NCBI RefSeq assembly: GCF_009730915.1
Contig: NC_052481.1
Location: forward strand, 20,496,461-20,560,460
Length of the DNA stretch: 64,000 nt
Origin: Dioscorea cayenensis subsp. rotundata
Taxonomy: Eukaryota; Streptophyta; Magnoliopsida; Dioscoreales; Dioscoreaceae
Direction: 5' to 3'
Part shown: positions 1 to 59,934 of the stretch, piece by piece
Position numbering within the stretch: the first letter of the stretch is position 1
How the letters are laid out: each line of letters begins with the position of its first letter
The notes under the pieces: generated by a model
The model's database searches: none
What the model was told of the DNA's origin: nothing
The model's input: only the letters and a program-made list of their open reading frames with translations
Position numbers and translations under genes: made by a program

Positions 1-400
1 ACCATAGCCACTTGACATATACCCAGATTTCATAGTAATATAGTATATATTCAACTAACTATTTAATGAAAAATATAGTCATGTGATGGAAATTTCCTTG
101 TACAAGCTGGTTGTTGTATAGTTAAATTCCTCAAAATCTCCTTCAAATTAGGACGATTGCTCTTAATTTTTTTCGGGTCATTTGACAATATTATTGTTAA
201 TTCATGCTTTTGGTTTTAAATTATATATTTTGAAAACAAAACTAAGAAGACATGTTTAGGCATGTTGTTTTGTTTTAAAAATATTTTTAGTAGCAATCTT
301 CATGTTTGTAAAAAAATAAGAAACAATATTTTTATGTTTTCAATTTTTTTGTAAACGCTTTTAAAACTCTTCCTCCCACTATTAAATCCTTCCTCTTGTG

Positions 401-446
<46 letters not shown>

Positions 447-880
447 TTTAATTTTTGATAACTTTTATTTTTTATTTTTTAAAAATATAATTTTTTTTAC
501 AATGAATACCAATAATTTTAAAAAATATATTTTTAAGAAAAATATTTATTAAAATTTATTATTTGGAATTGATATTTTACAAATTAGTTTACATATTATA
601 AATAATTATATTTTTATAATATATTTATGAAAATTATTGTTTTACCCTTGATTTTTATAAACTAAGATAAAATATATAATATTTTTAAGTTTCAAATGGT
701 ATAATTTTTATGAGATAGTTTTTATCCATACGATACCAATCTATATATGCTATTAATTTTTTTTAATTATACAATCAAGTAAATTAATATAAAAAATAAA
801 ATTTTATAAAAAAAACTAAAAAAATATGAATTTAAAAAAAAGATAAAAAAACATCATAATACTATAACAAAAGTTTTCAA
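1..880. other. AT-rich intergenic DNA with a CT microsatellite
   Basis: No credible gene. The stretch is strongly AT-rich with many A and T runs. It contains one long (CT)n tract at about 404-444. The LINE starts near its right end. Confidence 0.7.
404..444. repeat. (CT)n microsatellite
   Basis: About twenty uninterrupted CT dinucleotides, read directly from the sequence. Confidence 0.95.
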
Positions 881-1114
881 AGGAGAAGCCATGAGCCTCC
901 TTGGGGATCTCTGGAGTGGCGATAGTGGCGTCGCGGGGGAGCTATGGAGGCGGCCAAACAGGAATCGGACCCAAAGCCGATTAGTAGCCTAAGTCATTCG
1001 ATCATGTCGTTTGTGGAAGCGGTGAACTCATCCTCGACAGGTGAACACCCGGAGAAGCAGTAGCAAGGTGCACGTCGGGAGAAACAACAACAACCTTCAA
1101 GAAACTCCACTGGG

Positions 1115-3339: not shown

Positions 3340-3708
3340 GGTAACTCATGCCGGGCCTACAAGCTGATACCCATCCCTCCTAGTCCGAGTAGCAAGATGG
3401 GACAAGCCAAAGTTCTAGATGGAATGCGGAAGAGGGTTTCTTGGCCGAATCACCTAGATCAGCTAAAAAGAAAACGTCTAGGGTGGCGCGAGGGAAAGTA
3501 CTCCTTCCAAACCCCTTCTTACCTCGGATTTTTCAAATGTGCAAATTGCTAGTTACTGTAATGCATGTGGTATTGCTTTTGCTGATTCTGCCAAACATGT
3601 GGATGATTATATTGCTCACATTCATATGTTAGAAAAATTTTGGGTGGCCTATTCCAAGGGTCAGGTGGAGAGCCCTAGGGAGGTCCGCGAGATTTAATTA
3701 GTTTCCTT

Positions 3709-6700
3709 ATGAATATTGTCTCTTGGAATGTACAGGGTCTAGGTAGACCATCAAAACGTTTTTTGGTTAAGGACTTTTTGAATTTACACTTTGCTAATGT
3801 CTGTTGTTTACAAGAGTCTAAGTTGGCTGAGATTTCTTTGGTTACTTGGAGGGAAATAGGGGGAGCTTATCTTGACCAATTTGTCTTCCTCCCTTCACGA
3901 GGTACTACGGGCGGTTTCGTCATTGGTTGGAATAGCTTTGTTCTTTCTGGCAAGTTAGCTTTTTTTGGGATCTTTAGTCTATCAGTAGATTTCTATTCAA
4001 AAATTGATAATTTACACTAGCAATGTACTGCGGTGTACGACCCAATTACAAGAGCACTTAAGATCTCTTTTTGAGAGGAAACGCGAGCTTGCAGTGGACC
4101 GGTGGAGGTTTCTTGGGTAGTCGGGGGTGACTTTAATGCCATTTTTTATCTCCTGGATAAGATGTCGGGTCTGCCTAGCTAATCTTGAGAAGTTGAGAAA
4201 TGCCAACGCACTCCTACAGGATCTTGGTCTCCAGGAGCCCTCCATGATTGGTAGGAGGTTCACCTGGACCAATGGCCAAGCAAAAGCCATTTAGGTGAAG
4301 CTTGATAGATTAATTGTTAATAATGCTTGGGCTGCCTATTTTCTTAAGATGATTCAGAGCTGTCTACCAAGAATTTTCTCGGATCATGTGCCGATTAGGC
4401 TCGAGTGTGGCTCTCAATGCTCTCAGCATAGGCCCTTTAGATTCGAATTAGCCTAGACCATGGTGGAGGGTTTTCAGTGATTTGGTACATACTCGGTGGA
4501 CGTCCACTTCCTCCATGGGCTGCGGGGCTTTCATTTTTGCCAAAAATACGTCATTCCTCAGGGAACAATTAAGACATTGGGCAAAATTTAGCTTTTGGTT
4601 CCATCAAGCTCAGAAAGTTGGCTTTTTTGGAGGATTAAGAAGGGTTGGACATTGAGAAGGAGCCCCGTTAGCTTAGTGCTTTGGAGGTGAGCCAGGAGCA
4701 GTCCCTCCTTGACACTCTGGAAGTAATTAGAAGGCAAGAGGAATTGTATTAGAAGCAGAGATCAAGGCTGCAGTGGCTTAAGGAAGAGACGAAAACACCA
4801 AGTATTTTCATGCGGTTGCCAACGGGCGTAAGAATCGTAACTTCATTTCATCTATTAGGATTAACGATGTGGAACTAGCGAATACCAAGGAAATTGGCAA
4901 TGTATTTGCCGCGCTGTTCCGTCATCAATTTGGCACCAAGAGGGATTTTCGCTTCAAGATCGATTAGGGAAAACTTTTGGCTAATAAGGCTCCTGTGGAC
5001 TTGTCAATGTTGGAGAGATCCTTTTCTCTCGAGGACTTGAAAAGTGTTGTTTTTGAACTTGGAGGGGATAAGGCTCCTGGTTCGGATGGTTTCCCGATTC
5101 AGTTTTTTAAATATTTCTAAGATATAATCAAGGCGGATCTTTTCAAACTCTGTGAGGACTTCTACTTTGGCAGAGCCAATCTGGAAAAGATCAATTGGGC
5201 CAATATTGTCTTTATTCCTAAGGTGGAATCGCCGGAGTCTCTAGGGGATTACCGACCCATCAGCCTGATCAACTCTTCAATTAAAATCATCTCAAAGATA
5301 TTGACCACTTGTCTTAGCAAGGTTATTAACTAGCTAGTGGACAAGGCCCGATCTGCTTTCCTTAAGGGGGGTTGCATCTTGGGCAATATCGCTACTACTG
5401 AGGAGCTGATTTTTAGTCTCCATAAGTGGGGAATCCCTGGGCACATCCTTAAAGTGGACTTTGCCAAGGCATTTGACACTATGGATTGGGATTTCTTGTT
5501 AGACCTTCTATAAGCTAGGGGCTTCGGGAGTAAATGGAGGGGGTGGATTATGTCCATTCTGAGCTCTTCAAAGGCTTCGACCCTTGTGAACAGTGCTTTG
5601 AACTGTTATATTTGTTACCAAAGGGGTTTGTGGCAAGGTGACTATCTTTCACCTTTGCTTTTTGTCTTGGTCACGGATATTATGAGCGAAATGTTCGCTT
5701 ATGCTTTATCTTCACATGTTTTGCTGGGTGTTCCATTGGGGGAATTCGGTAGCAAATATAATCTTCACTATGCAAACGATTTGTTAGCTATAACCATAGT
5801 CGGAATAGAGGATCTTAGGATCATCAAGCTGTTGCTTTATGTTTTTCAAGGGTTGTGAGGACTTGAAACTAATTTTTTCTAAAATGTGCCTTTACTCAAC
5901 CAAGAAAGGCCAGCTGCCTAGCGCTAATGATACTGCTACCCTTAATTGTGTGGTGTGTATTCTTCCTGTGTCTTACCTCAAATTACCTATTTCGGGCAGA
6001 AGACCTTGGCGACAGGATTAGGAGGGGGTAGTTGCTTAAGTTAGGAGACGTTTATCCTCTTAGAAATCACAACATCTCTGCTTAGGTGGCAGGCTTACGC
6101 TCGTCAACCTGATGTTTTTTGTTTTTCCTATATATTGGATGTCGATAATTAGATTGCCAAAGTGGGTTATTAAGGCGATTGATCGTATCAGAAGAGATTT
6201 TCTATGGTAGGGCCAAGAGATCAACAATCTGGGTTGTTATTTGGTCTGTTAGAAGCACATTTGCAGGGCTAGTGACCAAGGGGGTTGAGGAATTTTGGAT
6301 CTGAGTACGTTTAATAATACTTTGCTAGGAAAGTGGTGGTGAAAATTTTTAACTGACCTCACTTTGTGCTGTGCAAGTGTAATTCTCTTCAACTACAAGA
6401 GGTCCAATTGGAATGTGTTTCCTCGTAAGGTGGGGCGGATCTTATTTTTCTGAAAAGGGCTCTCTAGTTGTCTGCCGGCTCTGAGGGGTTATATTCTGCA
6501 AGAAGTCATCACTGAAAGAGAGACAATCTTCTGGAAGGACCGCTGGTTGGACACGAGAGCACCGATATTTCTGTGGCATGATACGTTTAGTGTTTCGCCA
6601 GATCCGAATAGCTCTCTTCGTGATCTGGTCAACCTTTTAACAGAATCCCCCTTCTCTGAAGTCTCAGGGGTGTCACAGATTCATAGCTGTCTTTCCTTGG

Positions 6701-7397
6701 TGTCTAAAGAGCGGACGGATAAGAAAAGATGGAGCCTTACGTTGAATGGGAGTTTTTCTGTGAAATCTTTTTATACAATTTTTTTGAACGATGGAGGTAC
6801 ACGCTACCCAGTGGCAAGATTCTTCTGGTGTATCCCGTGTCCGAAGAAAATTAATCTTTTCAATTGGCTTGTTTGGAAGAACAATATTCTTTCCTTGGAA
6901 ATAAAACCTTGCGATGCATAGGTGTAACCAGCTCCCGACTTCCACTTGTGTTTTATGCCACTATGCGTCGGAGTCAGTGGATCATCTTTTTAGCCGGTGT
7001 TCCTTTGCGCAACAGTTGTGGGGGGTCCTTACCTAGATTACTACAGCTTCCTGACCGGCCCCTGTCTATGAGTGATGTCTGGACCTGCTAGTGGGCCAAT
7101 CTGAGTCCTTCTTAAAGAGATTTGGGAGATCTGTTAGTTAAAGTTTTTGTGTGGAATATTTGGCTTACTAGAAATGATCGAATCTTTAATGCAATTGTTT
7201 TGCCTATTCATGCTATTATTTTAAAGATGGATCATGTGATGTTATCTTGGTTCTTATCGGCATCAGATAGTGCTAAGGAGAAGTTGCAGGACTCCATGAC
7301 CTTTATTTATCTTAACTTGGAGTTCCATGGTCCCCGCGTTGTGGAGGTTGGTGAGCCTGCTGATAGCGAGGATGATCGGGACTTGAGTGTGGAGTAG
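3709..7397 (+). pseudogene. LINE ORF2 remnant (endonuclease and reverse transcriptase)
   Basis: The frame at 3709 begins MNIVSWNVQGLGRPSKR and continues to CLQESKL, the start of the AP-endonuclease fold. A GGDFNAI-like motif (about 4125) and SDHVPI (about 4380) belong to the same domain. The reverse transcriptase follows: KAPGSDGFP (about 5070), DYRPISLINS (about 5250), VDFAKAFDTMDW (about 5455) and QGDYLSPLLF (about 5635). The catalytic YADD box reads YAND (about 5770), so one metal-binding Asp is lost. The 6547-6921 segment resembles zf-RVT (NGSFSVKSFY, then a W-rich stretch). Numerous stops and frame changes interrupt the frame. The element cannot make a working enzyme. Confidence 0.88.
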
Positions 7398-7623
7398 TCC
7401 TTATATTGTTGTTGGGCTTGAGGAGGCCCTTTGTTCCTCTGTTTGTTGTATTTCTTTTCGGTTTGTTGTGTCTCCACATCTAGTGGACTGTTTTGTAGTC
7501 AAGCATTATATTTTGCTCCTGGTTTTTCTTTGGTACTTTCTAATCTTAATTTAAGTTGTTCATCCATCTTTTCAAAATATATATTTATATATATAACAAC
7601 TTTGTGCTAACCAAAGGTATTTT

Positions 7624-8163
7624 TGTTAAATATTGGCTTGATATCCTTGTGATGAAGCCAAAAACTTGATCTCTTTTAATCCAACGGTCTAGATTGCTCT
7701 ATTGTTTATATAGGGTTATGTTTGTTGGGTGTTGTGTAAGGAGAGAAAAGAGAGAAAGATAGAGAGGGTGAGTTTTCTTGTATTTGGAGAGTGGAAAGAG
7801 TGAAGGTGTAGAGGAGAGCTCTTGTTCTTGTTTGATCTCATTAAAACAAGGTAAGACTCTTGTTTTTTTAGGTAAGGCTAATTTTTAGAGCTTGGTAATC
7901 CTCTTGTGGATTTATGCCTATTTCTTGTACTCTTGTACTTTTGTTATTCCCCCATAATATAGGGAAGCATTGTTCTCCCGTGGATGTAAACTTGTTCTTA
8001 GCCGAACCACATTAAATTGGTGTCTCTTACTTTATTCTTGTGAGATTGGTTGTATGTTATCCTTGCATTGCCCATTCATTGTGTGATTGCTGGGTATTGT
8101 GATATTGCACATCAAGTGTTCGACGAATTGCCACACTAGTTCCGCGCTTCCTCACACGCAACA
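7624..8163. mobile_element. Solo LTR, 540 bp, target duplication ATTTT
   Basis: The block begins TGTTAAATAT and ends CACACGCAACA (TG...CA, with TGTT/AACA inverted tips). It is flanked by identical 5-bp duplications ATTTT at 7619-7623 and 8164-8168. A single LTR with one intact duplication and no internal domain is the product of recombination between the two LTRs of a retrotransposon. The tips and the length fit a Copia-type LTR, but the superfamily is inferred. Confidence 0.82.
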
Positions 8164-8439
8164 ATTTTTGTTTTTTTTAAATACACAATTATTAGTGTAT
8201 CCAAATATTTTTGTTTTAAAAAATTAAAAATAAAATTTTAAAAAAAAAACAAAAATGAAAAAAAATAAAACAAAACAAAACCGATGCTAAACGTTATGTT
8301 TCTTTTTTTCTCTCTCTCCTTATTTCAAAGTTTTAAAAATTGCATTAAATTTGTATCATTAATGGGTTGGTAAGGTTTTTTCCCTTTCTTCCAAATTTCA
8401 AATATGGATCACAGCTTTGAGATTAAAGAAGATTAGTGC

Positions 8440-8652
8440 GTCAACTATTGGATAGCCCAATGGTATGACATCAAAGTGTAAGGGGGAGGTCATGGGTTCA
8501 AATCTCTCCCCCAACAGCACTGTTCATGTACTGTTCATACACTGTTCACCAGGGATTTCTATACTATTCTCATACTGTACATCCGGGTTCTAGTATTGTT
8601 TAGTACTGTTTATATTCATAAAAAAGGGCGTTTGTCGTCTATTATTCAAAAA
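8440..8652 (+). mobile_element. tRNA-derived SINE with 15-bp target duplication
   Basis: A 15-bp direct repeat AAAGAAGATTAGTGC flanks the block at 8425-8439 and 8653-8667. The head carries a Pol III box-A-like segment (GGATAGCCCAATGGTA, about 8450-8465) and a box B (GGTTCAAATCTC, 8495-8506). The 3' end is A-rich. The body after the head has several copies of a TACTGTTCA-like 9-11-mer (about 8515-8620). Together these are the hallmarks of a tRNA-derived SINE moved by LINE machinery. Confidence 0.88.
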
Positions 8653-8802
8653 AAAGAAGATTAGTGCTCTTATCGATGTTTATTAGTCAGAACGGGAGTA
8701 GATTTTTCTATGATAGATGGTGTACAAATAATGAATTGTTAAGTCATCAATAGAGGGGCCGGTAATAAGGTGATAAAGAACTCATACTATTGAACCTCGA
8801 AG

Positions 8803-9656
8803 TAGGGGTGTATTTGAGCCGAGCCGTTCGTGAGTAGCTCGATGTTCGGCTCGATAAAGGCTTGTTCGTGAGTAGCTCATATTGTAAACGAGCCAAGCTT
8901 GAACATCATTTTCAAGCTCGATTAATAAACGAGCCAAGCTTGAGCAGCCAAAAGCTCGGCTCGTTTTGGCTCGCGTACACAGCTCGTGACCAAGCTCGTT
9001 TATAAGCTCGATTGTGAGCTCGTTTATATATATATATATATATATATTACATTATATATATGTATATGTATATGTATATTAAGGTGTATATGTGACTATG
9101 TCATTGTTGTCAATTTGAGTTACACATATAGGGCTATAAACTACTATTCAAAGGCTAAGCTCATTAAAAGCTCAGGTCAACTAGTTCATTAAGTTAAATG
9201 AGCTCATAAGATAAACGACCAAACTCGGCTCATTAAATATTGTGAAGAACTCGTTTATTGTATAATTAAAAGCTCGTTTATAGTATCATTTATAATTTTA
9301 TTTGTAACAATCATTAATATAATCAACCTCAAATCGAGTTGAGTCACACTTGATAATGATTCATTAAATAAGTTTACTAAATAAAAAAATAAAATATAAA
9401 AAAAATAGTCAAGCCTTAATCAAGTTAGCTAGCTAAGTCTAAAGCTTCGAATTTTCTTAACAAGTTGAGCTCGAGCATGAAGCTCGAAAGAAGCTCGATT
9501 AGAGCTCGAGCTCGGTTAAAATAGTAACGAGCCAAGCTTGAACATAATAAATGAAGCTCGAAGAAAGCTCGGCTCGAGTTCAAACTCGATTAAATAGTAA
9601 CGAGCCAAGCTTGAACAAGGCAAAGCTCGGCTCGGCTCGGCTCATTTACAACCCTA
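8803..9656. mobile_element. Non-autonomous hAT element, 854 bp, 8-bp target duplication
   Basis: The element starts TAGGGGTGTATTTGAGCCGA and ends with the near inverse complement (TCGGCTCATTTACAACCCTA). It is flanked by a perfect 8-bp duplication CCTCGAAG at 8795-8802 and 9657-9664. The 8-bp duplication and TAGGG-type tips identify the hAT superfamily. It has no transposase. Both subterminal regions are packed with AGCTCG/CGAGCT words in both orientations, and the centre holds a (TA)n run near 9025-9048. An ORF inside (8986-9192) is chance. Confidence 0.93.
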
Positions 9657-9664
9657 CCTCGAAG

Positions 9665-10365
9665 TTATGAGATTGGTGAATACTATTTTAAATTGTTTTG
9701 TGCCGTAAAATTTGAACCAGATTCAATGGTTTATATTAATTATATAAAATAACATGTATGATATAAAATTGTATTTCTTTAATGTGCAAGTCTCATATAT
9801 GCTAGATTTATTAGTTAAATGAGCCCTCAATAATAAATTTTAATGTCTATAGATTATTTATGTTCATTAGTTGATCTTAAACTTATATATTAAAATGATT
9901 TTTTTAAATTTATTATAGTATATATATATATATATATATAGCTTCCGTCATAAGTTTCTATTATGCTTCTGTTTAATTAACATGACATGTAATATCAGAA
10001 CACATTAATATAAAGTAATTAGTTAATATAATGTGATTTAATTACTTATTTTTTTAGAAAAGTTAGGGGGGTTTATTATGAAAATGCTTTACTAGCTCTC
10101 ACTGTTTTTTCCCTCACTTCACCATCATTTCAAACTCAGATAATAATTAATACTTGTATAAATTATTCATTATATATCTCACGAGTTCAGATGAAAATAC
10201 TGTACATTTCATTTTTTACTATATTATTATTCATAAATCAGTATTACTGTTGATATCTATCGTAAAATTCAAATCAAAAGTGTTGAGTTCATTGGATCTC
10301 AATCCGACGGTTCAAGATCAACATTCATAGATATGGAATCTAGGAGCATACTCAAAAGATGCAAC

Positions 10366-10413
<48 letters not shown>

Positions 10414-11266
10414 TATAGCAAATATTTAATAATATAATATATTATATTTGTCATTTAGTTTTACACCATTTTTTATTTTTTTAATTTAAAAAAATAACAT
10501 TTGTCCTTCTTTACGTTAGCCTATGATTCATAATGATATTGCACTGATATTTATCTCACTAGTTTTTTTTTATAATATTTTTAATAGCTCACCAAAGCTA
10601 CGTAACATATGTATACCCAACATTTCATAGTATCCAAGTACCTATTCATTGCAAACGTGGCTCATACCATGAAATTTTTTTTGTACAAGCATATTGTTGT
10701 AAAATAGTTTAATTATATAAAATCTTTTTAAAATTAGAATCACCATTTTTAAAATTTTTTTTTAATTTCAAAATTTCAAACATAGCATTGAAATAGTAGC
10801 ATTGAGGGTTTGTGGAAGTGATAATTACGGTTTTAGACTTTTTAGATTTATATTTATTACTAATATAATAAAATATAAGTATATAAAATAATATTCTGAT
10901 ATGCAATGAATTCACTGTACTAATCAATCAAACAATTAGTGGGCGAAATCCACTTAATTTAATTTATAAAATGAAATTCATCAAAATTGAAAAATTTATA
11001 TCTAAAACTTCTTAAAATCTCTTCTGACATTCTTAACAATCCATATAAATAGGTATATATATATATATATATATATTATATCATGTGATATTATTTACAT
11101 ATTCTTAATAAATAGGAAATCCATCATCAATAAATCAAATCAGATGTAAGTAACGGATTAAAAAAAAGACAAGCATTATTCATTCTTTAAAAACGAACAT
11201 AAAATTATAAAAATACCAAAAATCTAAAAACTCTTTTATCACATACCCAAACATAAAAAAACAAAA
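9665..11266. other. AT-rich intergenic DNA
   Basis: No gene seen. It contains long (TA)n runs at about 9918-9940, 10368-10406 and 11052-11076. Open frames here are short, AT-driven and without recognisable domains. Confidence 0.6.
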
Positions 11267-11271
11267 TAAAT

Positions 11272-12695
11272 TGTTAAGTCTAACGACGTGGATTGGCATT
11301 ATGTGACAAGCCAAGAGGTGACATGCCAAAAGAAGATGACTAGGCAATGATGACTTGGCAAAAAAAGAAGTAACTAGGATGATGTTGTGACTAAAGCTTA
11401 ATGATATGGCATATGAAGATATGAAGCTCAGAAAATCATATTTGGAGACTATATTTAGAAGAAATTCCTCTTAATGATTCATGTGATGATTAACTAATTT
11501 TGGAAAGGGTATAAAGTTAAAAGGATCTCTTCAAGAAAGGTAAATTTTATCTTATGTATGATTGTATCTATCCTTGGTAAGATCCGGGATGATAAATCAT
11601 GTTTTTAATAAAACTCCTTTTAGGAAAGATCTATTTTAAAAGAGATGAATATTCTATTATTGGCAAGAATAAAAGATCATCATGAAGATTGCATGAAACT
11701 TAGTTTGGTGTGAAGCTATTTGAAGACACAAACTAAGATAGACAAGGACAAACCAATGTGATTCTCCAGACTATATTTAGCAACATAATTTGAAGGGAGA
11801 TCTAAGAGCTAATTATGGACGGAGTTATTCAAGGAGACAAATCATATATGAAGGATTGATTGAAGGTTACTTGAGATTTGATTGAAGATTTGAAGATCCA
11901 AGCATGGATGAATAGGATCATGTTTGAAGATATTGAAGGCTAAACTTGGATGAGATGAGATCAAGTTTAGTAACAATATTTCCATGAGTCAAACGAAAAT
12001 CATTTGGGAAGACCAAACTTGGACCAAGTTTGGAAAGAAGATCGGGAGATCTTCGGTGATCATCTATGGTGAGATGGTTGCGTGTGCCTTGGTAGGCACG
12101 TCCCTCAAGAGAGGGGACCTACTGAAGTGACGTGAGGAAGGAAGCGGTTGCAAGCAGGAGGAGTTCGGGACAAGTCAACTGCTACGAAGCGGACTGAAGG
12201 AACTGGGAGGGTTGAAAGTGTCTCAAGTTCGGGTGCAATGGCTAGAACTCAATCATGTTTAGTAAGGTGGGCAGTGTTGTAACTGGGTGTTACAACATCT
12301 AACTTTGGAAGGTGTCCAAGTTAGAAAGCCACAGAGAATTCTAGAAAAGGAAGGATCAAGTGGACGTAGGTGCGTCTATATAAGATATCCTGCTTGAAAA
12401 TTTAGGATGAGCCACAAGTGAGAGACCCTTTGGTGAGGGTTGAGGAGAGTGGGCATCGGGCAATCTTAAGAGGGTATTCTTTGTCTTGAGTGAGTAAGGG
12501 AGAGTTATACTCTTTATTCTATCACCTCTTTAAGTGGATTGTTTTTCCGAGCTTTGCTCCCCAGATGTAGGCAAGGTTGTGCTAAAGTGGGTTACCAATT
12601 TATGTGTTTTCTTTATCTTGTTTGATTGTGTGTATTCCTTATTCTAGTGAGTTTTTGAGTAACTCTCTTAATCACACTACCCACCAGAACTATCA
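11272..12695 (+). mobile_element. Solo LTR, 1424 bp, target duplication TAAAT
   Basis: The block begins TGTTAAGTCTAACG and ends CCAGAACTATCA. It is flanked by TAAAT at 11267-11271 and 12696-12700. It is moderately GC-rich in an AT-rich setting. A CTATATAAG TATA box at about 12376 lies roughly 320 bp from the 3' end, where the U3/R boundary of an LTR would be; this sets the + orientation. No gag or pol coding remains. The superfamily cannot be named from the LTR alone. Confidence 0.82.
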
Positions 12696-13009
12696 TAAAT
12701 ATGTAAAAATAGAGTCATACTTTTCTTACATGCATTGTAATTAACTCACTAATAATTTTTTTAAATTATTTTTTCTTACAAAATATGAGTAACCATATTT
12801 CAAATGTGTGTGTATAGACATGAAGATACTACTTCATCACACTTGTACTTTCACATTCAAACTTATTTCTTTGATAGAAGGCACAAGTACTCTGCATAGA
12901 GGACATGGTGTCAATAAAATAAAAGGGTGGTTAGCAACTCACTAATAATCTTTTATTAAAACAAAATCACATAAATAATTATCTATAGTCCTCCTTGCCG
13001 ATGGATAGT

Positions 13010-13216
13010 GGATACGGACATTATTCATTAAATAATACATTGAATAATATTGCATGAACGAAGGTGCAAGTTTGTACATATGCCTACGTGCTAAAAAATG
13101 ATTTGGTTGAACATAATTATGATTTAATTAATTTGTACGAGATTTCTTACAAATTGGAACCAAATTAAATTTATAAATTCCAAAATATACATATTTATAA
13201 GAAAGAAAATCTCATG

Positions 13217-13249
<33 letters not shown>

Positions 13250-13345
13250 TCTTTTTTCTAGAAACATAAGAAAAATTAAATCTTAACTATTAAATTTTAT
13301 TTCTTAATTATTCTAAACAACTTCTATCCGCACAACCAAGCATAC
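13010..13345 (+). repeat. Upstream region shared by glycosyltransferase copies 1 and 2
   Basis: This stretch is homologous to 15890-16055 plus 16680-16790. Shared blocks include ATACGGACATTATT, GATTTAATTAATTTGTA, GAGATTTCTTACAAA and ACCAAATTAAATTTATAAAT. Tandem duplication therefore included promoter DNA. The copy-2 version is interrupted by a MITE. No comparable sequence is seen upstream of copy 3. The rest of 12701-13711 is AT-rich and holds no gene. Confidence 0.75.
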
Positions 13346-13711
13346 CTCATATTATTATTATTATTATTATCACACTCAACTGATCAAAACCAGTCAAATT
13401 CAATCCTTTATATTGAAACAAAAAATATATTAATTAAGACCATTTTTTCTCACACAAATAAATAAAAATAACAAAAAAATTAAACAGAATTAGCTCGCAT
13501 ACCTCTGTTCCATTATATGCGTCTATGACAAAAAAACAATAAAATAATAAAATTTAAATTAAACAAAATAAATAAATAAAGGAAATTCCATTTTTATCCC
13601 ACGCTTTCTCCATGCCCACTGCACCCACTTCCTCCTCACTATAAAGCCATAAGCCCACCCAATCATCATCATCATCATCATCATCGTTACAATAAAGAAG
13701 CACAAATCTCG

Positions 13712-14245
13712 ATGCGAATCACCGGAGATCAAGTGGCACGGCGGCGCCTCCACAAGGCAATCCTCCTCCTCGCCGCAGTGACCCTCCCATGCACTCTCCT
13801 CTACCTCAGCCCCACGCCATCCACCACCTGGTTCCTCCTCTCCAACCCCTCTCAGCCGATTACCCCCTCCTCCTCCTCCTCCTCTCAAGACCTCCGGCAA
13901 GTTCTCAAGGCCGCGGCCATGGCGGACAAGAAGACGGTGATTTTAACGATGGTGAACTCTGCTTGGATATCACCGGGTTCGGTGATGGATTTGTTCATGG
14001 AGAGCTTCAAGCTTGGGAATGGGACGAGTGAGTTGTTGGATCATTTGGTGTTGGTGGCCATGGATGAGAAGGGTTACGTGAGGTGCATGCAGGTGCACAA
14101 CCACTGTTTCGCGTTGACCACTGAAGGCGTTGACTTTTCAGAGCAGAAGAACTTCATGTCCGGTGGTTACTTGAAGATGATGTGGAGAAGGCTTGAGTTT
14201 CTTGGAACTATTCTTAACTTGGGCTTTGACTTCATCTTCTCAGTA

Positions 14246-14310
<65 letters not shown>

Positions 14311-15638
14311 GAGTTTAGTAATTAGGTAGGATAAAATGAGCGTTCATTTCAAGCACAATGAGGATACGTGCAAGTGTGGTGAGAGTTTATTAATGAATTT
14401 GGTTTATTTATTTTTGAAAAAAGAAAAAGTATGGTGAGGGATTAACTATATATTTTGTGTATGTCCTTGATATATCATTGTCTATATTTTAATGGAAATA
14501 AATTTTACTGGCCTGTGTTTTTTAAAAAAAAAAAAAGAAGAAAAGAAATAAATACATGAGGGATCTAAAAAAAACTTTTTAATTAAAATTAATTTGGAGT
14601 TTAGTGAATCAATTATTATTATTATTGTTGTTGTTGTTTATTTATTTATTTATTTATTATGGTTATATGAATTACCTGATTGGATTTAAGAGTTCTGTAA
14701 TTGTTAGCTTGTTAGATTATTAGAAAACTAAGGGAAGGAATTCAAGTGGCATGTGCTCCTCAAAAGTTAGATTATTAAAAAAAATCTATTTTTATTTTTG
14801 AATTTAATTAATTATTTTCATTAGGCATCTTGTGAAAGTATAAATATTTTATTTTTATTCAAGGTTCTAGATTAATTTTGGGTAAAACCTCTCTATGTTA
14901 TAATACTTTGTTTTTATTATTATAATTAGACTAATTCTCTTTATTTGACACCATTAATCTTCTTTCAATGAGAGTGTCTTTATTTTAATTGATTTATTAA
15001 TTATTCATTGGAGTTTATATACACAAGTGTTTATGCATGCAAGAATTTCTCATGAAACCTTTAATTTTAATGACCAAATAAGTTAATTAAATTGTTATAT
15101 ATTAAAATAACTATTTGCTTTTAACTTCTTTTAACAGGACGCTGATATAATGTGGTTAAGAAATCCTTTGCTACATTTCTATTCAGATGGAGATATTCAA
15201 TTTTCTTGTGATAGATTTAGTGGCTTTTCAGAGGACATGAACAACGTTGCAAATACTGGTTTTTATTATGTCAAATCCAACAACAAGACCATAAATTTTT
15301 ACAAGTATTGGTATTCATCAAGAGTTAATTATTCTCGGCATCATGATCAAGATGTTTTTAATTTTATCAAAAAAGACTCATACGCAAGAGAATTAGGGGT
15401 AAAATTTAAATTTCTTGATACGGTTAATTTCGGTGGATTTTGTCAACCCAGCAAAGATTTCAACCAGGTTTGTACTATGCATGCTAATTGTTGTATTGGC
15501 TTGAGCCGGAAAATACATGACCTTGGTTTGGTGCTTGATGATTGGAGGAAGTATATGAGGATGAGTTCAGAGGAAAGACAAACTCAAAGAATGTCTTGGG
15601 GTGCGCCGAAAAATTGTAGTCTCGCTCCACTTGGTTAG
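13712..15638 (+). CDS. Glycosyltransferase-like protein, PF03407 type (At4g15970-like), tandem copy 1
   Basis: Two exons, 13712-14242 and 15138-15638, joined in phase 0 across a GT-AG intron, give 343 residues. This is the usual size for plant nucleotide-diphospho-sugar transferase-like proteins. Residues about 16-33 form a single hydrophobic anchor (ILLLAAVTLPCTLLYL), so a type II Golgi membrane protein is likely. The catalytic region has AMADKKTVILTMVNSAW, HCFALTTEGVDFSE and, right at the exon junction, FIFSDADIMW with the metal-binding DxD. FGGFCQPSKDF and CTMHANCCIGL close the domain. A family-conserved PNGGF reads ANTGF here. The donor sugar and acceptor are unknown. The start is supported by the same start context in all three copies. 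Confidence 0.88.
14248..14309 (+). repeat. (TTA)n microsatellite just inside the copy-1 intron
   Basis: About twenty TTA/ATT triplets begin five bases after the 5' splice site GT at 14243. A shorter version sits at the same place in copy 3 (about 21556-21582) but not in copy 2. Confidence 0.93.
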
Positions 15639-16087
15639 CATGCTTGTTGTTTTATAGGATTGTTGTGTGAATTTTTTAAAAAAAAATTATATATGAATAA
15701 TCAAGAGGATTTGATGAACATCCGATTTGTATTTTAATAGTTTTGTGTTGATTAAGATTGTTAAGATGGACATGTACTCAAGCAATTGCAAGTTGAAAAA
15801 AATAAATAATAAAATATCTCTTGGATGTATGGATTTCAGTAAAATTATTCAAAATATCTAATTATCAAAATAATAGTTAGCTAGAGGAATACGGACATTA
15901 TTACATTAAATAGTGTTACATGGATGAAGGTACGTACATGCACATATATATACGTGTTAGGAAATGAGTTGGTCGAACTGAACATTCTTCTGATTTAATT
16001 AATTTGTAAGAGATTTCTTACAAAAATGGCACCAAATTAAATTTATAAATTCTAATATATATATATATATATAGGGATAAGTCTTTT

Positions 16088-16654
16088 AGGGAGGTCCCCA
16101 TAATCCATATCTGGGGATGTCTAATGTTGCAGCCTTAGATTCTTCAACATCAACAAAATTCAAACTTTGATTCATATAAACAAGTGCATCAACCAATTAA
16201 CAAAAAAAAAATAACAAAAAATAAAGCCCATCTTTATAGCAACAATCTCCATCTAATAACATTCTGATTTTCACGATAAACATTTCGTCAATACCGAATC
16301 AAATGAAATATTATTCAATCTCGAAATTAACAGCATTTCAAGAACAAATTAACACTCAAATCAATCAGAAAAACGAATGAGAGGAAGGAATCGGTTGAAT
16401 GAGAGGAAGGAATCGATTGATCTATAGAGAGATGGATCTAAACCTTTAACACGAGAGACGATGGGGCGTTGGTGGAGACGGGGGAGAAGGCGTTGGTGGA
16501 GACGGAGACAGTGGATGCTGTGGAGGCGTTTGTGGAGATAGGGACATGTGGTTTTGGTAAAGAGAATTTCAGTGTGGTTTTGGGGGGAGCCGTTAGATCA
16601 AATGATCTAACGGCTCCTAGTTACATCCCAGATATGAATTCTGGGGACATCCCT
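16088..16654. mobile_element. MITE-like element inserted in the copy-2 promoter
   Basis: The left end AGGGAGGTCCCCATAATCC is matched by the inverse complement of the right end, AGGGATGTCCCCAGAATTC. The similarity continues inward through CATATCTGGG for about 35 bp. The flanks continue the sequence homologous to the copy-1 promoter, so the block is an insertion. An inner palindrome (GATCAAATGATC) lies near 16595. No transposase. The superfamily is not assignable because the target duplication is obscured by flanking TA repeats. The open frame at 16469-16681 is not a gene. Confidence 0.7.
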
Positions 16655-16979
16655 AGAAGATATATATATATATATATATAAGTTTGTTTTTAAATCATCT
16701 TCAAAGATCTGGAAAGAAAATCTTAATTAGCTACATTTAAATTTTTTTCTTAATTATTCTAAACTAATTCTATCCACTTAACAAAGCATATCCCATACAT
16801 ATTTATATTTTATTTTTAAAATACTATATATATATATCCCCATACTCTAAACTAAATCAAAATCAAAATTTTCAAAAAAATAAATAAATAACACTCAAGA
16901 TCACATTATCACTATAAAACCTCAGACCATCAACCACCACCGCCCACCACCACAACAAAAACAACAAGCACGAATCTCA

Positions 16980-19059
16980 ATGCAGTTCACCGGAGATGCC
17001 AAAGAACTCCGGAGGATCCTGCCGGTGATTCTCCTCCTCGCCGCGGTCACCATCCCTTGCACACTCTTCTACCTTTCCGTCAGCCCGGGCACCACCTTCA
17101 ACTCCCTCTCCAAGCTCTTTCCGACCACACAAACCTCATGGAAGGAGGAGCTCCGGCGAGTCATGAGCGCGGCGGCGATGGGTGACGAGAAGAAGACGGT
17201 GATCATAACGATGGTGAACTCGGCGTGGATGGCACCGGGTTCTATGATGGACTTATTCATGGAGAGTTTGAAGATTGGGAATGGAACAAGAGAGTTATTG
17301 AATCATTTGGTGGTGGTGGCCATGGATGAGAAGGGGTACGTGAGATGCATGGAAATGCATGGGCCATTGCTTCGCGTTGACCACTGAGGGGGTTGACTTT
17401 TCAGAACAGAAGAACTACATGACCGCTGACTATTTGAAGCTGACGTGGAGGAGGATTGAGTTCCTTGGAACTGTGCTTGAGTTGGGTTTTAGCTATATTC
17501 TCACGGTATGCTTGCATGCTTTTGTTTATTTATTTATCAACTTTTATGAGAGTTTTTGGTTCTATGTGTTTTGAATTATATTATCATGTTGTGAATTGAT
17601 GATATTGTTTTTAAGATGTTTAGTTTGTAAAAATAAGAATTGGAGTGTAGTTTGTGTGTTCATTTTTCATTATATGCTCTTGTTTATGGTTTATTTATGC
17701 TTTTGTGTGTTGATTTATTTATTTATTGCTGAGAACTTGAGAGGATGGCTCATATAGTGGTAAAATTTAGATTCTTTTTTAAATCATATTATGATTGTAT
17801 GTGAGTTCATTCTTTTATGTTTTTATGTTTTGATTTAGTTTTATTTTTTATTTTTATGAAAGTTTTTAGTAGCACGTGGAGAAGTTGGTTATATATTTTT
17901 ATGATTTAGGTTTTAAATCTTATATATAAGGATATTGATAATTGATGATAATTTTTTTTAGAAGTTAAGCTGTAAAAATTATTTTTTTTAATAAAAAAAT
18001 AATTTGGAGTTTAGAGAAGGAAGTATTTGTACTTTATATTATATTTTTTTATATTCTTTTTGTTTTTATGGTTATATGAATTACATGCTTAGATTTTGAG
18101 TTCTGTAATTGTTAACTTAGATTATTAGAAAACTAGGGGAAGGAATTCAAGTGGCATGAGCTCCTAAAAAGTTAGACTATTTTTGTAATAATAGATTAAA
18201 CAAAAATATCTGCTTTGATTTTTGAATTTAATTAATTATTTTTCATTAGGTATATTGTGAAAGTATAAATATTTTATTTTTATTCAAGGTTCTAGATTAA
18301 TTTTGGGTAAAACCTCTCTATGTTATAATACTTTATTTTTATTATTATAATTAGAGTAATTCTCTTTATTTGACACCATTAATCTTCTTTCCATGAGAGT
18401 GTCTTTATTTTAATTAATTTATTAATTATTCATTGGAGTTTATATACACAACTGCTCATGCATGCAAAAATTTCTCATGAAACCTTTTGAATGACCAAAT
18501 AAGTTAATTAAATTGTTATTTATTAAAATAACTATTTGTTTTTAACTTCTTTTAACAGGATGCTGATATAATGTGGTTCAGAAATCCTTTGCTACATTTC
18601 TATGCAGATGGAGATATTCAATTGTCTTGTGATAGTTTTAGGGACAATTCAGAGAACATGAACAACGTTGCAAATACTGGTTTTCATTATGCCAAATCCA
18701 ACAATAAGACCATAAATTTTTGCAAGTATTGGTATTCATCAAAAGGTAATTATTCTGGGTATCATGATCAAGATGTTTTGAATTTCATCAAGAAGGACTC
18801 ATACACAAGAGAATTAGGAGTGAAAATCAAATTTCTGGATACTGTTAATTTCGGTGGATTCTGTCAACCTAGCAAAGATTTCAACCAGGTTTGTACTATG
18901 CATGCTAATTGTTGTATTGGCTTGAACCGGAAAATACATGACCTTGGTTTGGTGCTTGATGATTGGAGGAAGTATATAAGGATGAGTTCAGAGGAAAGAC
19001 AAACTCAGAGAATGTCTTGGAGTGTACCGAAGGAGTGTAGTTTTGCGCCGATTAATTAA
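16980..19059 (+). pseudogene. Glycosyltransferase-like protein, tandem copy 2, one-base frameshift in exon 1
   Basis: Exon 1 is 16980-17505 and exon 2 is 18559-19059, with the same anchor, DxD (DADIMW) and C-terminal motifs as the neighbours. Exon 1 breaks after residue 126: the run GGG at 17361-17363 has one base more than needed. With GG the frame would read on through the HCFALTTEGVDFSE motif into an intact remainder; as written it stops at 17387. Both splice sites look normal and exon 2 is fully open, with ANTGF in place of PNGGF as in copy 1. This is either a very young pseudogene or an assembly error. The MITE at 16088-16654 lies about 330 bp upstream. Confidence 0.82.
18096..18558 (+). 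repeat. 3' intron half nearly identical to copy 1
   Basis: This stretch matches 14690-15137 in the copy-1 intron with few changes. Shared blocks include GGAAGGAATTCAAGTGGCAT, AAGGTTCTAGATTAATTTTG and GAGTGTCTTTATTTTAATT. The copy-3 intron has nothing comparable. Confidence 0.85.
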
Positions 19060-21010: not shown

Positions 21011-22895
21011 ATGCACTCCGACGGAGATCTCGAGACAGTTCAAAGCTGGCGCCGCCGCCTCCTCCCTCCGGCAATCCTGCTCGCCGCCGTCGTCTTACCC
21101 TGCTCTCTCATCTACCTGGCCTCCACCATGGACAACTCATGGCCTCTTCTGACCTCTCTCCCCGCCGGCGTTACTGAAGAAATGAAGCTCCGGCGAGTTC
21201 TCAGCTCCGCTGCCATGGCGGACAATAAGACAGTGATCTTAACGACGGTGAACTCGGCGTGGATTTCACCGGGTTCAGTGCTGGACTTGTTCATGGAGAG
21301 CTTCAAGCTTGGGAATGAAACGAGTGAGTTGTTGGATCATTTGGTGGTGGTGGCCATGGATAAGAAGGGTTACGTGAGGTGCATGCAGGTGCACAAGCAC
21401 TGCTTTGCGTTGACCACTGAAGGCGTTGACTTTTCAGAGCATAAGAACTTCATGTCCGGTGATTACTTGAAGATGATGTGGAGGAGGCTTGAGTTTCTTG
21501 GAACTATTCTTGACTTGGGCTTTGACTTCATCTTCTCAGTATGTTTCTCTTCTGCTTATTATTATTATTATTATTATTATTATGATGAGTTGAGAATTTA
21601 ATAATTAGGTAGGATAAGATGAATGGCACAGTATTAAAATATTAACTTTTATATTTTTTGCTTTTTTTTTTCTGATGTGTCATTGTTCCATATTTTATAA
21701 ATAAAAATAAAAATAAATTAAATTGGCGTATTGAAAAAAAGAAATAGATATAAGAGGGAAGTCACAAAAATACACTTTAAATGATGGGTAGAATTAATAT
21801 TTGATTTAGGGTTGAGAGAGGAATTTTAGGTACATGTGTGTTGAGGATTAACTCGACATCTTATGCATATCCTTAGACTGGACATAGTATGTGAGTTTTA
21901 AAAAAAGAGAAAAAATAAATAAATAAAGGAAAGAAACCACAAAGAAAAAAAATAGATATAAGAGGGAAGTCACAAAAATACACTTTAAATAGTGGGTAGA
22001 ATTAATATTTAATTTAGAGTTGAGAGAGGAATCTTGGGTACATGTGTGTTGAGGATTAATTCGACGTCTTATGCATATCCTTGGACTATCCTTGGACTGA
22101 ATATAGTATGTGAGTTTTAAAAAACAGAGGGGGAAAAAATTAAGAAAAAAAACCACAAAAATATACTTCAAATAGGGATGGAATTAATATTTAAAATAGT
22201 GGGTGGAATTAATATTTGAAATAGGGTTGAATGATCAGAGATTGAGATGACAGGTACTAAACAAATTTGAGCTTTAGTTTTTTATTTTGTGAGTTTGATT
22301 TTGTTGGCTGAAGTATGTGTTTCAGAATATTGTTTTAAGATGATGAATAGAAATTAATGGCTAAGATTATTTAATTGTTTAAATTGTTTTACAGGACACT
22401 GATATAATGTGGTTCAGAAATCCTCTACCACATTTCTATAAAGATGGAGATTTTCAAATAGCATGTGACTATTTTGTGGGCAATCCAAATGACTTAAACA
22501 ATAAACCAAATGGAGGTTTTATGTATGTGAAATCAAACAACAAGACCATAAGTTTTTTCAAGTATTGGTTCAAATCACAAGAAAGGTATCCTGGTGTCAA
22601 TGAACAAGAGGTTTTAAATTTGATCAAGAAGAATGCATTCACAAGAGAATTAGGAGTAAAGATTAGATTTCTTGATACCACCTATTTTGGTGGCTTTTGC
22701 GAACCGAGTAAAGATTTCAATAAAGTTTGTACAATGCATGCTAATTGCTGTATTGGTTTAGGGAGAAAAATTCATGACCTTGTTTTGATGCTCAATGATT
22801 GGGGAAGGTATATGTCAATGAGTCCGGAGGAGAGACAAAGTCAGAGAATGGCTTGGAGTGTGCCGAAGAATTGTAGTCTTGCTTCGCTTGGTTAA
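21011..22895 (+). CDS. Glycosyltransferase-like protein, PF03407 type (At4g15970-like), tandem copy 3
   Basis: Exons 21011-21538 and 22395-22895 join in phase 0 to give 342 residues. An in-frame ATG exists at 20939, but 21011 matches the start context CGAATCTCAATG shared with copy 2, so I prefer it. The N-terminal anchor is LLPPAILLAAVVLPCSLIYL. Motifs are AMADNKTVILTTVNSAW, HCFALTTEGVDFSE, the DxD as DTDIMW across the junction, PNGGFMYVKSNN (the standard family form), FGGFCEPSKDF and CTMHANCCIGL. It is the only copy with the ancestral NGGF motif and an intact frame, so it is the best candidate for the ancestral function. A Golgi glycosyltransferase is likely from family; the substrate is unknown. 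Confidence 0.88.
21744..22135 (+). repeat. Two-fold tandem duplication in the copy-3 intron
   Basis: A block of about 200 bp starting TAGATATAAGAGGGAAGTCA (21744) recurs at 21953, with a period of about 209 bp. It includes ACATGTGTGTTGAGGATTAA and TATGCATATCCTTGGACT. A partial third copy, CACAAAAATATACTTCAAAT, follows near 22155. Confidence 0.85.
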
Positions 22896-22992: not shown

Positions 22993-24837
22993 TCAGAGTT
23001 GCAACACCAGCATGTTTTTTATCAGGAATGAAACACCATCTGCTTCAGGCAATGCATGCTTTCTTGATAATCGGCTCCACCGCGGTTCAGGATCAGAAAC
23101 AGAACACACAGTTAAGAAATCAACTAGCTGACCAAATATTTTAAAAATCTCTGTACCATAAATCTTATCGTCATCAGCTACAAAGGTTGCATTCCTGTCC
23201 ATGGGAGCATCAGGGTGTCTTGAAACCTCAGACCATGTGTGATGCCATATATCAAACTCCCATAACTTCCTCACAGCTTTCTCCCTCCTGTTCAATAGCC
23301 CATCTGTGTCGCCCCACGATACGCATAGCATAAACAATCGACTATTACATGATATGAGGTTGAGTTTGTACTCTTGAATGCGCGGAGGTGGTTGGGATAC
23401 TTGGATCACAACCCACAAGCCCATCTCCAGATCATAGGCTGCAAGTTTATCATTCTCTGAGAAGACATAAAACTTCGCATTGCAAACAGCACCAGAACAA
23501 ACAGTCCCAAAATCTCTAGGCAATCTTGCAATTTCTATCCATTTATTTGTCACAGGATCATAGATTTCCCCAGTATCTAGAGGATGATACAATGATCCAG
23601 CACTAGAAATCCGATGACCACCAACGACGATCAGTGCGAATCTCAGCTGATTGTTGCTATTTTCTCTGGCAAATTCTGATGGTTCTCTGTTCAGTTCATG
23701 TGAATGGTGGCGAGTCTCATGAAGATAATCACTGACCTGACACCTGAGAGAAAACCTGTGAGGATCTTCATAAACATCCGAGATCCTAAACGACCGAGAC
23801 TTTAGATGATGGTTTGAGGAGCGATGAGTGTTTGCATTGAAAATGCTGCAATTGGCACTAACATGAAAGACTCCCAGGACAGGATGCAACCTTGCCGAGT
23901 TCATAGGTGCAGCTTTCCGCCACAAACCAGTCAAAGGATTGAATACCAACATCCCTTTGTGTACCTTAAAGGAGTCGTCATTCAATGGCAAGTTCAATTG
24001 GACAGAACTAGAGCAACCACCCACGATGTAAATCTCATTGCCCATGCTAGCAACTGAAAACATGAACCTATTCTTCAGCGCATCATCACTGATCCTATGC
24101 CACTGATCTAGTGAAACATCCAAAGCATGCATCTCACCATGATAAGATCTATTAGTTGAAATGCCAAACAAGAACAACCACGGACTCTGATAAGAACCCT
24201 GCAACCTCATCCGCATAAAATGCGGTGTGGTTGCCAGTAATTTCCACTTCTTGCACACTTGACGAGCAGCCAATAGAGATGTCAAGGGAAGCCGAATGAG
24301 AATCATCTCCATAACGTCATCAGGGAGTAATGGCATTTCAAATATAGGTTCTGGTTCACACACAGTTTCCTCAACATCCTTCGCCTTTTTTGAAATTTTC
24401 CACTGGAACAAACTAGCAGTGCCATGAGCCAAGCATTCGACATCGATTTTTTCAACCCCAGAAGCCAGCCTATGCAGCATGCAGTCCTCTGAAACATTAG
24501 ACCTTTTCCTGAAACTCAAATCAAAATCATCACAAGCACCAACTCTACATCCGCCACCTCTTATATAACGACTAATGAGACCAGAAGACGAACACCTTGC
24601 CTGTGTTCTTCCCCAACTCCAATACATACCTTGGCTACTCTTTTTCTTCTTCTTCTTCTTATTCAAGGCCACATTTTTTGACAACCTTAAAGCACTGAAA
24701 TCCCTCTGAAGAGATGAATCTCCATTGGAGAGCTCATCAGCAATCCCACTAGCCCTAATCACTCCCTCAGAAAAATGATTCAAGAGAGTTACCCTACTAC
24801 TACTTTTTGATCTATTCAAATCACTCACATTTACCAT
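22993..24837 (-). CDS. F-box/kelch-repeat protein, At5g42350 (CFK1)-like
   Basis: A single uninterrupted frame on the minus strand. I take the ATG at 24837 (MVNVSDLNRSKSSS), giving 614 residues. An upstream in-frame ATG at 24882 would add 15 residues rich in Cys and Val that do not look family-like. A lysine run (KKKKKKK) lies at about residues 60-66. The F-box is at about 167-210 (LPDDVMEMILIRLPLTSLLA..CKKW), and its partner would be SKP1 in an SCF ubiquitin ligase. Kelch-like repeats follow (IYIVGG, FALIVVGGHR, GEIYDPVTNKW, KLAAYDLEMGLW, KLWEFDIWHHTW). Overall layout matches Arabidopsis At5g42350/At5g42360. The target protein is unknown. Its stop lies about 100 bp from the stop of glycosyltransferase copy 3, in convergent orientation. 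Confidence 0.88.
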   Translation of the reverse strand: MVNVSDLNRSKSSSRVTLLNHFSEGVIRASGIADELSNGDSSLQRDFSALRLSKNVALNKKKKKKKSSQGMYWSWGRTQARCSSSGLISRYIRGGGCRVGACDDFDLSFRKRSNVSEDCMLHRLASGVEKIDVECLAHGTASLFQWKISKKAKDVEETVCEPEPIFEMPLLPDDVMEMILIRLPLTSLLAARQVCKKWKLLATTPHFMRMRLQGSYQSPWLFLFGISTNRSYHGEMHALDVSLDQWHRISDDALKNRFMFSVASMGNEIYIVGGCSSSVQLNLPLNDDSFKVHKGMLVFNPLTGLWRKAAPMNSARLHPVLGVFHVSANCSIFNANTHRSSNHHLKSRSFRISDVYEDPHRFSLRCQVSDYLHETRHHSHELNREPSEFARENSNNQLRFALIVVGGHRISSAGSLYHPLDTGEIYDPVTNKWIEIARLPRDFGTVCSGAVCNAKFYVFSENDKLAAYDLEMGLWVVIQVSQPPPRIQEYKLNLISCNSRLFMLCVSWGDTDGLLNRREKAVRKLWEFDIWHHTWSEVSRHPDAPMDRNATFVADDDKIYGTEIFKIFGQLVDFLTVCSVSDPEPRWSRLSRKHALPEADGVSFLIKNMLVLQL

Positions 24838-25470
24838 TTTCCGTACACAAATGACACACAAACACACAATACAATCACTCAATCCTCAAACCCTAACCTT
24901 TCATCTACTCAATTATCATTTTTCAAAGAAAAATTCCACCTTTCCTTTTCTAATTCTGGCAATCATACAAGAAACCACAAACCAACAGCTAAAGATCACA
25001 CCTTTAACACCTAAAACAATTCACCATTCAAAGAGTCCAAAGAAAACCTAAAGTCAAAGCAATACCGAAGAAATCCAAGAATCAAACTCTAGAATCACTC
25101 AATGATCACCAAAATATACACAATAAATTCACAGCGGCAACCAAATCAATCAATATAAAGAAGAAATCCAAAGCTAGAGAAACAAACCCTAATGGCGGGA
25201 ACCGAAAGAGATTTGGAGCTGGATTCCATGGAAATCCATCGAGTTTCCAGATCTGGGAATGCGGTTGCTGATCATCAGCTTTATAACCATAAATCACTAT
25301 AAAGAAAAAAAACACACTCATTATTCTCACTTAAAAATTGACTTACAACGGGACCCACGCGAACGTGAGAAATTAATGGCAACGGTCCGTTTTTGGGTTC
25401 AAAAAGTCTGGTCCTCATAAATTCGGCATATGCGAGTACATTGACCAATGGGTCAACACTGCCACGTGTG
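24838..25470 (-). promoter_or_regulatory. 5' leader and promoter of the F-box/kelch gene
   Basis: A TATAAA on the minus strand (25280-25285) lies about 440 bp upstream of the ATG, leaving a long leader that could hold an intron. A G-box-like CCACGTGT sits at 25462-25469, about 180 bp further upstream. The motifs are seen; their function is inferred. The short open frames here are not convincing genes. Confidence 0.5.
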
Positions 25471-40251: not shown

Positions 40252-43879
<3,628 letters not shown>

Positions 43880-59259: not shown

Positions 59260-59439
59260 ACATGTGAGATGTGAGCATCATTCAATAGTGGGGAAAGACC
59301 TCTACTGACCATGTAGATCTCAAGAGGGGAGTTTTTCACCATTGCTTTAAACTCCACAAGGGTCACCGGCCTTCAAGAGATTTTTTTTACTTAAGAGAAA
59401 CTGTTACAATGAGGGTTCTTTAATATATTGTTTTGAACT

Positions 59440-59934
59440 CCACTCACTCAATATATTTTTCACTTCATCAAGAGGGTCTAAAGAGGTAATGGAGAAACTC
59501 TCACAATGAGGGTTCTCTACCACTACATTGGACCTCAACATGAGTTGATAATCTTCAACATATTTTCCACTTAACTCAAGAGAGTCTAAAGAAGTAATAG
59601 AGAAACTCTCACAATGAGGGTTATCTAACACTATATTGGACCTTAACATGAGTGAGTGGTCTTCAAGAGACTTTCCACTCAACAAGAGTGAGTGGTCTTC
59701 AAAAGAAATTCCACTCAACTCAAGAGAGCCTAAAGAAGTAATGAGAAAACTCTCATAAAGAGAGCTCTCTACCACTACATTGGACTTAACAAGAGTGGGT
59801 GGTCTTCAAGAGACTTTCTAGTCAACTCAAGAGAGTCTCAAGAGGTAATGAAAAAACTCTCACAAGGAGAGCTCTCTACCACTACATTGGACCTCAACAT
59901 GAGTGGGTGGTCTTCAAAAGACTTTCCACTCAAC
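59440..59934 (-). repeat. Minisatellite of about 130-bp units with an open frame on the minus strand
   Basis: Four to five degenerate copies contain, on the + strand, AACTCTCACAATGAGGGTT, CACTACATTGGACCTCAACA, GGTCTTCAAGAGACTTTCC and ACTCAACTCAAGAGAGTCTA. On the minus strand, 59775-59404 stays open for 123 residues and reads as a repeated peptide (NPHCESFSITSLDSLELSGK, then EDHSLMLRSN). One unit has lost a base near 59785, which shifts the frame. I do not recognise the peptide. The hAT element has been inserted at its right edge. Confidence 0.8.

Follow-up and report, generated by a model that had tools for sequence, protein, structure and literature searches.

A copy 2-type patch in a tandem glycosyltransferase gene points to gene conversion between neighbouring copies

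The window, meaning the whole 64,000-nucleotide stretch analysed (C11:20496461-20560460), holds the last three (c1, c2 and c3, for copies 1, 2 and 3) of five tandem same-strand PF03407 genes, and c1 is a mosaic of two sequence types. The 3′ part of its intron and most of its exon 2, roughly 1.0 kb, are of the type found in its neighbour c2, and the sequence on either side is of the type found in cA and cB, two further copies on the same contig (C11) just 5′ of the window. The mosaic has two switch points, and it is c1 that differs from its relatives. Read from sequence comparison, the pattern is very probably the product of gene conversion of ~1.0 kb from c2 into c1 after c1 and cB split, and a single unequal crossover would not account for it. 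We regard it as a clear but ordinary conversion in a tandem array.

The three window copies are all two-exon genes on the same strand, with c2 beginning 3.3 kb downstream of c1. A protein search of the assembly (584 Mb, 2249 contigs) with c3 as query gave 19 matches, counted by exon piece and with the window's own included; other matches lay on C19, C14, C4 and C16. The compared set comprised cA, cB and the regions on C19, C14 and C4, with the C19 gene as outgroup, and all comparisons were made within one assembly, that is, one accession of one species. The protein search also suggested a 533-aa open frame around cB, which was rejected, the translation of the cB intron being full of stops. The features of the array are as follows.

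C11 about 20479087-20481879, same strand as the window copies: cA, CDS
C11 20493720-20495252, same strand as the window copies: cB
13712..14242, + strand: c1 exon 1 (ATG, donor GT, 177 codons), all of it native cA/cB type, 13885 included
14248..14310, + strand: (TTA)21 microsatellite near the 5′ end of the c1 intron, also in the cB intron and shorter in the c3 intron
14566..15605, + strand: putative converted tract of c1, outer bounds (left switch ~14566-14603, right switch 15589-15605)
15138..15638, + strand: c1 exon 2, starting DADIMW and ending with the stop, c2 type to 15589 and cA/cB type from 15605
15639..15892, + strand: c1 3′ flank, cA/cB type, aligned with cB to 15823 and with cA to 15892
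16980..17505, + strand: c2 exon 1 (526 nt), frameshifted by 1 nt at about 17353-17366, with stops beyond
17985..19010, + strand: matching donor-type stretch in c2 (3′ intron and most of exon 2)
18559..19059, + strand: c2 exon 2, open, with a PF03407 match
21011..21538, + strand: c3 exon 1, of its own type in the N-terminal part (as far as about 21187), remainder cA/cB type
21188..22895, + strand: c3 interior common to cA/cB, its left edge corresponding to 13885 in c1
22395..22895, + strand: c3 exon 2, cA/cB type

To establish which part of c1 is native, we compared each segment with all other copies of the array. Because its N-terminus and both 200-bp flanks are closest to cB and cA, c1 reads as a cA/cB-type gene with a native exon 1 that does not derive from copy 3. 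At the N-terminus c1 is identical to cB at 159/180 positions and to cA at 141/171, against 107/171 (63%) for c2 and 93/165 for c3; in the 200 bp upstream of its ATG the counts are 150/198 for cB, 149/190 for cA, 85/154 (55%) for c2 and 96/171 for c3; and in the 200 bp past its stop they are 171/194, 159/192, 91/168 and 74/175, respectively. Taken together, the N-terminus, promoter, last codons and 3′ flank of c1 are 76-90% identical to cA/cB versus 54-71% to c2. These values contradict the original prediction, made from the three window copies, that the N-terminus and promoter of c1 are c2-like; that claim fails for the N-terminus and the proximal 200 bp and stands for the distal 5′ flank (13033-13368), which is 75-79% identical to c2, though cB matches there too. 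The switch that had been placed near 13885 is likewise not seen in c1, and the boundary belongs instead to c3, at about 21188. What the three-locus alignment does bear out is that c3 is the closer of the two to c1 over the exon 1 body (13892-14242; 325/351 versus 285/351 for c2) and over the first part of the intron (67/80 versus 56/93); in the five-copy comparison the c2 exon 1 body covers 350 of the 351 columns. From the microsatellite to 14514 the c1 intron is weakly alignable to other copies.

The foreign part of c1 begins within the intron. An alignment of c1 with cB over 14514-14603 has a score of 61, where the best of 200 shuffles reached 38, while the match to c2 begins at 14576 and the c2-type run is clear by eye from about 14594; the left bound of the tract was judged by eye from these overlapping alignments, and the previously proposed intron switch at ~14555-14590 is about right. 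From there the 3′ intron is identical to c2 at 503/553 positions versus 260/561 to c3, and exon 2 up to 15590 at 419/453 versus 342/453, in agreement with the c2 likeness first reported for these segments. Between 15589 and 15605, about 15 codons ahead of the stop, c1 switches back to the cA/cB type, a second switch that had gone unnoticed, and native-type sequence resumes in the 3′ flank beyond the tract. The mosaic itself is thus real, with its parts exchanged relative to the earlier description: the 3′ intron and most of exon 2 are foreign and exon 1 is native. The single-window view can invert the reading of the mosaic in this way because the closest relatives of copy 1, cA and cB, lie outside the window. 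For comparison, exon 2 of cA and cB is only 338-347/453 identical to c1 and c2. Synonymous divergence follows the same division, with dS between c1 and c3 rising from 0.19 in the exon 1 body to 0.83 in exon 2 and dS between c1 and c2 falling from 0.68 to 0.175, a contrast between the two segments at synonymous sites that none of 2000 permutations reached. The c2-like patch has the gene's own ancestry on both flanks, and it includes non-coding as well as synonymous sites; the intron part of the likeness may, as another possibility, come from a repeat element common to c1 and c2.

We additionally scored diagnostic sites, gap-free positions at which cA and cB share a base other than that of c2, as cA/cB-like, c2-like or neither in c1. 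The N-terminus of c1 has 41 cA/cB-like, 4 c2-like and 6 neither (n=51), the exon 1 body 42, 1 and 0 (n=43), exon 2 to 15590 6, 68 and 10 (n=84), the last 48 nt 7, 0 and 0 (n=7) and the 3′ flank 57, 2 and 2 (n=61). With the 16 ‘neither’ sites dropped, the maximum chi-square along the 169 two-state coding sites is 105, a value reached in 0 of 20000 permutations, the largest of which gave 27.7. Third positions alone give the same picture, with cA/cB, c2 and neither counts of 16/2/2 in the N-terminus and 23/0/0 in the exon 1 body (39, 2 and 2 over the whole of exon 1) and 2/28/6 in exon 2, as do strict fourfold sites, at 12/0/0 in exon 1 and 0/4/1 in exon 2. In exon 2, the accepted topologies are the three that join c1 with c2, and each of the remaining 12 (of 15) has a deficit of 137-144 log units. 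The best topology for the exon 1 body groups cA with c3 and cB with c1, and the AU test leaves 4 of 15 topologies unrejected there, one of which pairs c1 with c2 (p 0.15). In the flanks, the best tree splits cA, cB and c1 from c2 and c3 with 97% bootstrap, and three topologies that break the cA, cB and c1 group, including one with c1 and c2 as a pair, are not rejected (AU p 0.09-0.13). The trees are overwhelming for exon 2 and merely supportive elsewhere, so outside exon 2 the weight is carried by the identities and site counts.

Several other explanations bear on the same data. One is that c1 is at base of the copy 2 type and that copy 3 supplied its present exon 1 body and 5′ intron (from 13885 to about 14570), which is what the three window copies suggest on their own, the exon 1 body being nearest c3 and exon 2 nearest c2 and the distal 5′ flank resembling c2. 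We consider this very unlikely, as the N-terminus, promoter, last codons and 3′ flank of c1 are of the cA/cB type, cB also matches the distal flank, and c1 lacks a switch at 13885. A related candidate, two separate conversions into c1 from c3 and from c2, also arose from the three-copy comparison and was rejected, the first of the two being removed by cA and cB. It is also highly improbable that c1 is an assembly chimera built from misjoined c1 and c2 reads: a tandem array in a plant genome, seen in one assembly, is a setting for such errors, but c2 reads misplaced in c1 should be near-identical to c2 unless divergent haplotypes were mixed, whereas c1 and c2 differ at 34/453 positions in exon 2 and 50/553 in the 3′ intron, and the window is without any N.

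Of the two exchange mechanisms originally put forward, gene conversion or unequal exchange, conversion holds up and a single unequal exchange does not. One unequal crossover that joined the 5′ part of c1 or c2 to the 3′ part of its neighbour would suit adjacent same-strand copies and a left switch that falls in an AT-rich low-complexity stretch of the intron. However, c1 and c2 are both still present, and the c1 3′ flank (15639-15892) is of the cA/cB type rather than the c2 type expected of such a fusion, so that a second exchange would be needed, the pattern of which equals that of conversion; we therefore judge a single crossover extremely unlikely. Two switches with native sequence on either side, with both loci present, argue for gene conversion instead. 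There is next to no chance that no exchange occurred and that unequal selective constraint or convergence underlies the exon 2 likeness of c1 and c2, since although dN/dS does vary along the gene (0.47-0.95 in the N-terminus, 0.12-0.49 in the exon 1 body), the pattern is kept at synonymous sites, at third codon positions and throughout the 3′ intron, where the number of identical bases leaves protein selection no explanation.

Under gene conversion, c1 would have split from cB within the cA/cB lineage, after which ~1.0 kb of c1 would have been overwritten non-reciprocally from the corresponding part of its neighbour c2, leaving an intact chimeric frame, cA/cB-type in its N-terminal half and c2-type in the half that bears the DxD motif. 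The recipient is c1 because its exon 2 departs from cA/cB and its surroundings do not, and since cA and cB are without a c2-type exon 2, the change falls on c1's own branch. As a non-reciprocal transfer predicts, c2 is without a cA/cB-type exon 2 in the one assembly analysed (340-347/453 to cA/cB). We infer that homology-directed repair acted once, with c2 itself or its direct ancestor as donor and not a lost sister; the c2 lineage would be the donor in either case, and a lost sister of c2 may have served.

The distances give no clean date for the event relative to the c1-cB split, so the order of events rests on topology. Divergence between c1 and cB is 0.129 in the 3′ flank (23/194) and 0.295 in the 200 bp upstream (48/198), with dS of 0.107 in the exon 1 body and 0.175 in the N-terminus, and divergence between c1 and c2 in the tract runs from 0.061 in the intron core to 0.175 for exon 2 dS. 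This divergence is uneven, at 27/463 in the intron core (14660-15130, which leaves out the leftmost 84 bp of the tract, 74-88% alike in windows), 50/553 over 14576-15137 and 13.0/83.2 at exon 2 synonymous sites, so a single event is not certain; the unevenness could perhaps be attributed to overlapping events. According to PMC3924818, conversion occurs mainly above 80% identity, with a low rate below, and mean tracts are about 200-500 bp in yeast experiments. By that standard, an identity of about 75-80% makes these copies poor substrates for conversion, though they were presumably closer at the time of the event, and a 1 kb tract is on the long side for these copies and may record more than one event. 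Since the conversion, exon 2 has taken 4 synonymous and 9 non-synonymous changes in c1 and 4 and 5 in c2, with 12 unresolved, which is too few to judge relaxed constraint in either copy. PMC9010478 gives median Ks of 0.064 for D. alata-D. rotundata and 0.163 for D. alata-D. dumetorum; set against these, the 0.06-0.175 that separates c1 from c2 in the tract would put the event at roughly the time of the D. alata-D. rotundata split or earlier, and if it took place at or before that split, we predict that the c1 mosaic might occur in D. alata.

Plant PF03407 proteins are generally placed in CAZy family GT77. The PF03407 domain (Nucleotid_trans; nucleotide-diphospho-sugar transferase) is matched by c1 with 224 bits (E 2.7e-66), by c3 with 235 bits (E 1.1e-69) and by c2 exon 2 alone with 140.1 bits, against a curated cut-off of 22. 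The c1 frame is intact at 343 residues, with a cA/cB-type first half and a c2-type second half, and its exon junction sits just ahead of the DxD motif, so that exon 2 opens with DAD (DADIMW in c1 versus DTDIMW in cA, cB and c3); the new exon combination joined just before DxD that had been proposed is thus present. A PDB sequence search with c3 gave one chance-level match (E 0.91). The clades of plant GT77 glycosyltransferases and their roles, RGXT, RRA and XEG113 among them, are treated in PMC3342304. The proteins c1 and c3 resemble these enzymes in having a PF03407 domain and a DxD motif; placing them in one of the clades, or linking them to a sugar donor, acceptor or cell-wall polymer, would be provisional.

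Interlocus (ectopic) gene conversion between tandem duplicates is also described in PMC6368629 for the CRK/DUF26 clusters of plants, and our case is similar in that patches are replaced non-reciprocally among neighbouring homologues, keeping or mixing similarity. It differs in that one tract is placed here, with its switch points and recipient, and in that most of one exon and part of an intron were swapped with the present donor frameshifted. This is a well-delimited case of conversion at exon scale within a tandem array of a plant, the recipient and likely donor being identified, and whole-CDS phylogenies of these genes would be misled by it. No title on this array was found among the literature matches listed, and the array may still have been described. 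If the chimeric protein is active, it would be a naturally occurring domain swap, made where the two exons meet ahead of the DxD motif. That the DxD half of a dying paralogue was rescued into an intact neighbour, giving a working chimera with changed specificity under a cA/cB-type promoter, is a doubtful proposition.

The likely donor c2 looks broken in this assembly, though sequencing error is possible. Despite its 1-nt frameshift, the exon 1 body of c2 has dN/dS of 0.18-0.28 against other copies, and this low value suggests that the frameshift is recent or a sequencing error. A frameshift is also seen in cA near the C-terminus (L009 about 4836-4856), where the protein ends a few residues early.

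Copy 3 is a mosaic as well, its interior from 21188 to the stop codon (22895) being of the cA/cB type inside a shell of its own. Against the cA/cB consensus, its identity is 93/144 in the N-terminus, 315/318 in the exon 1 body, 387/407 in exon 2, 40/43 in the last 48 nt and 61/135 in the 3′ flank, and its intron aligns with the cB intron over 304 columns at 76%. The interior was homogenised with the cA/cB lineage separately from the c1 tract, and either direction fits. Exon 2 dS is about equal among c3-cA, c3-cB and cA-cB (0.34-0.37), and c3 is nearest cA in the exon 1 body and nearest cB in the intron. The exon 1 body of c3 is identical to that of cA at 339/351 positions (window 21188-21599, L009 2259-2676) and to those of cB or c1 at 318-325/351, and the likeness to cA could perhaps reflect another exchange, across the roughly 38 kb that separate these two copies. 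The c3 intron also carries two copies (21733-21831 and 21942-22036) of a unit of about 95-100 bp that is single in the cB intron, 86-87% alike.

Elsewhere in the window, the c2 5′ flank holds about 580 bp (about 16065-16675) that the c1 and cB alignments skip, with imperfect inverted ends of 76 and 71 nt aligned, an AT repeat included; this insert looks like a small DNA transposon (MITE). Rfam at gathering thresholds gave 0 matches over the whole window, and Pfam matches mark three further open frames.

22993-24885, − strand: F-box/Kelch open frame
32916-34005, − strand: protein phosphatase 2C open frame
40234-43879, + strand: ANF_receptor/Lig_chan open frame

We take the domain combination of the last of these to be that of plant glutamate-receptor-like channels. 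Finally, four diverged direct repeats of 153 nt, with spacings of 108, 144 and 107, lie at 59426-59937.
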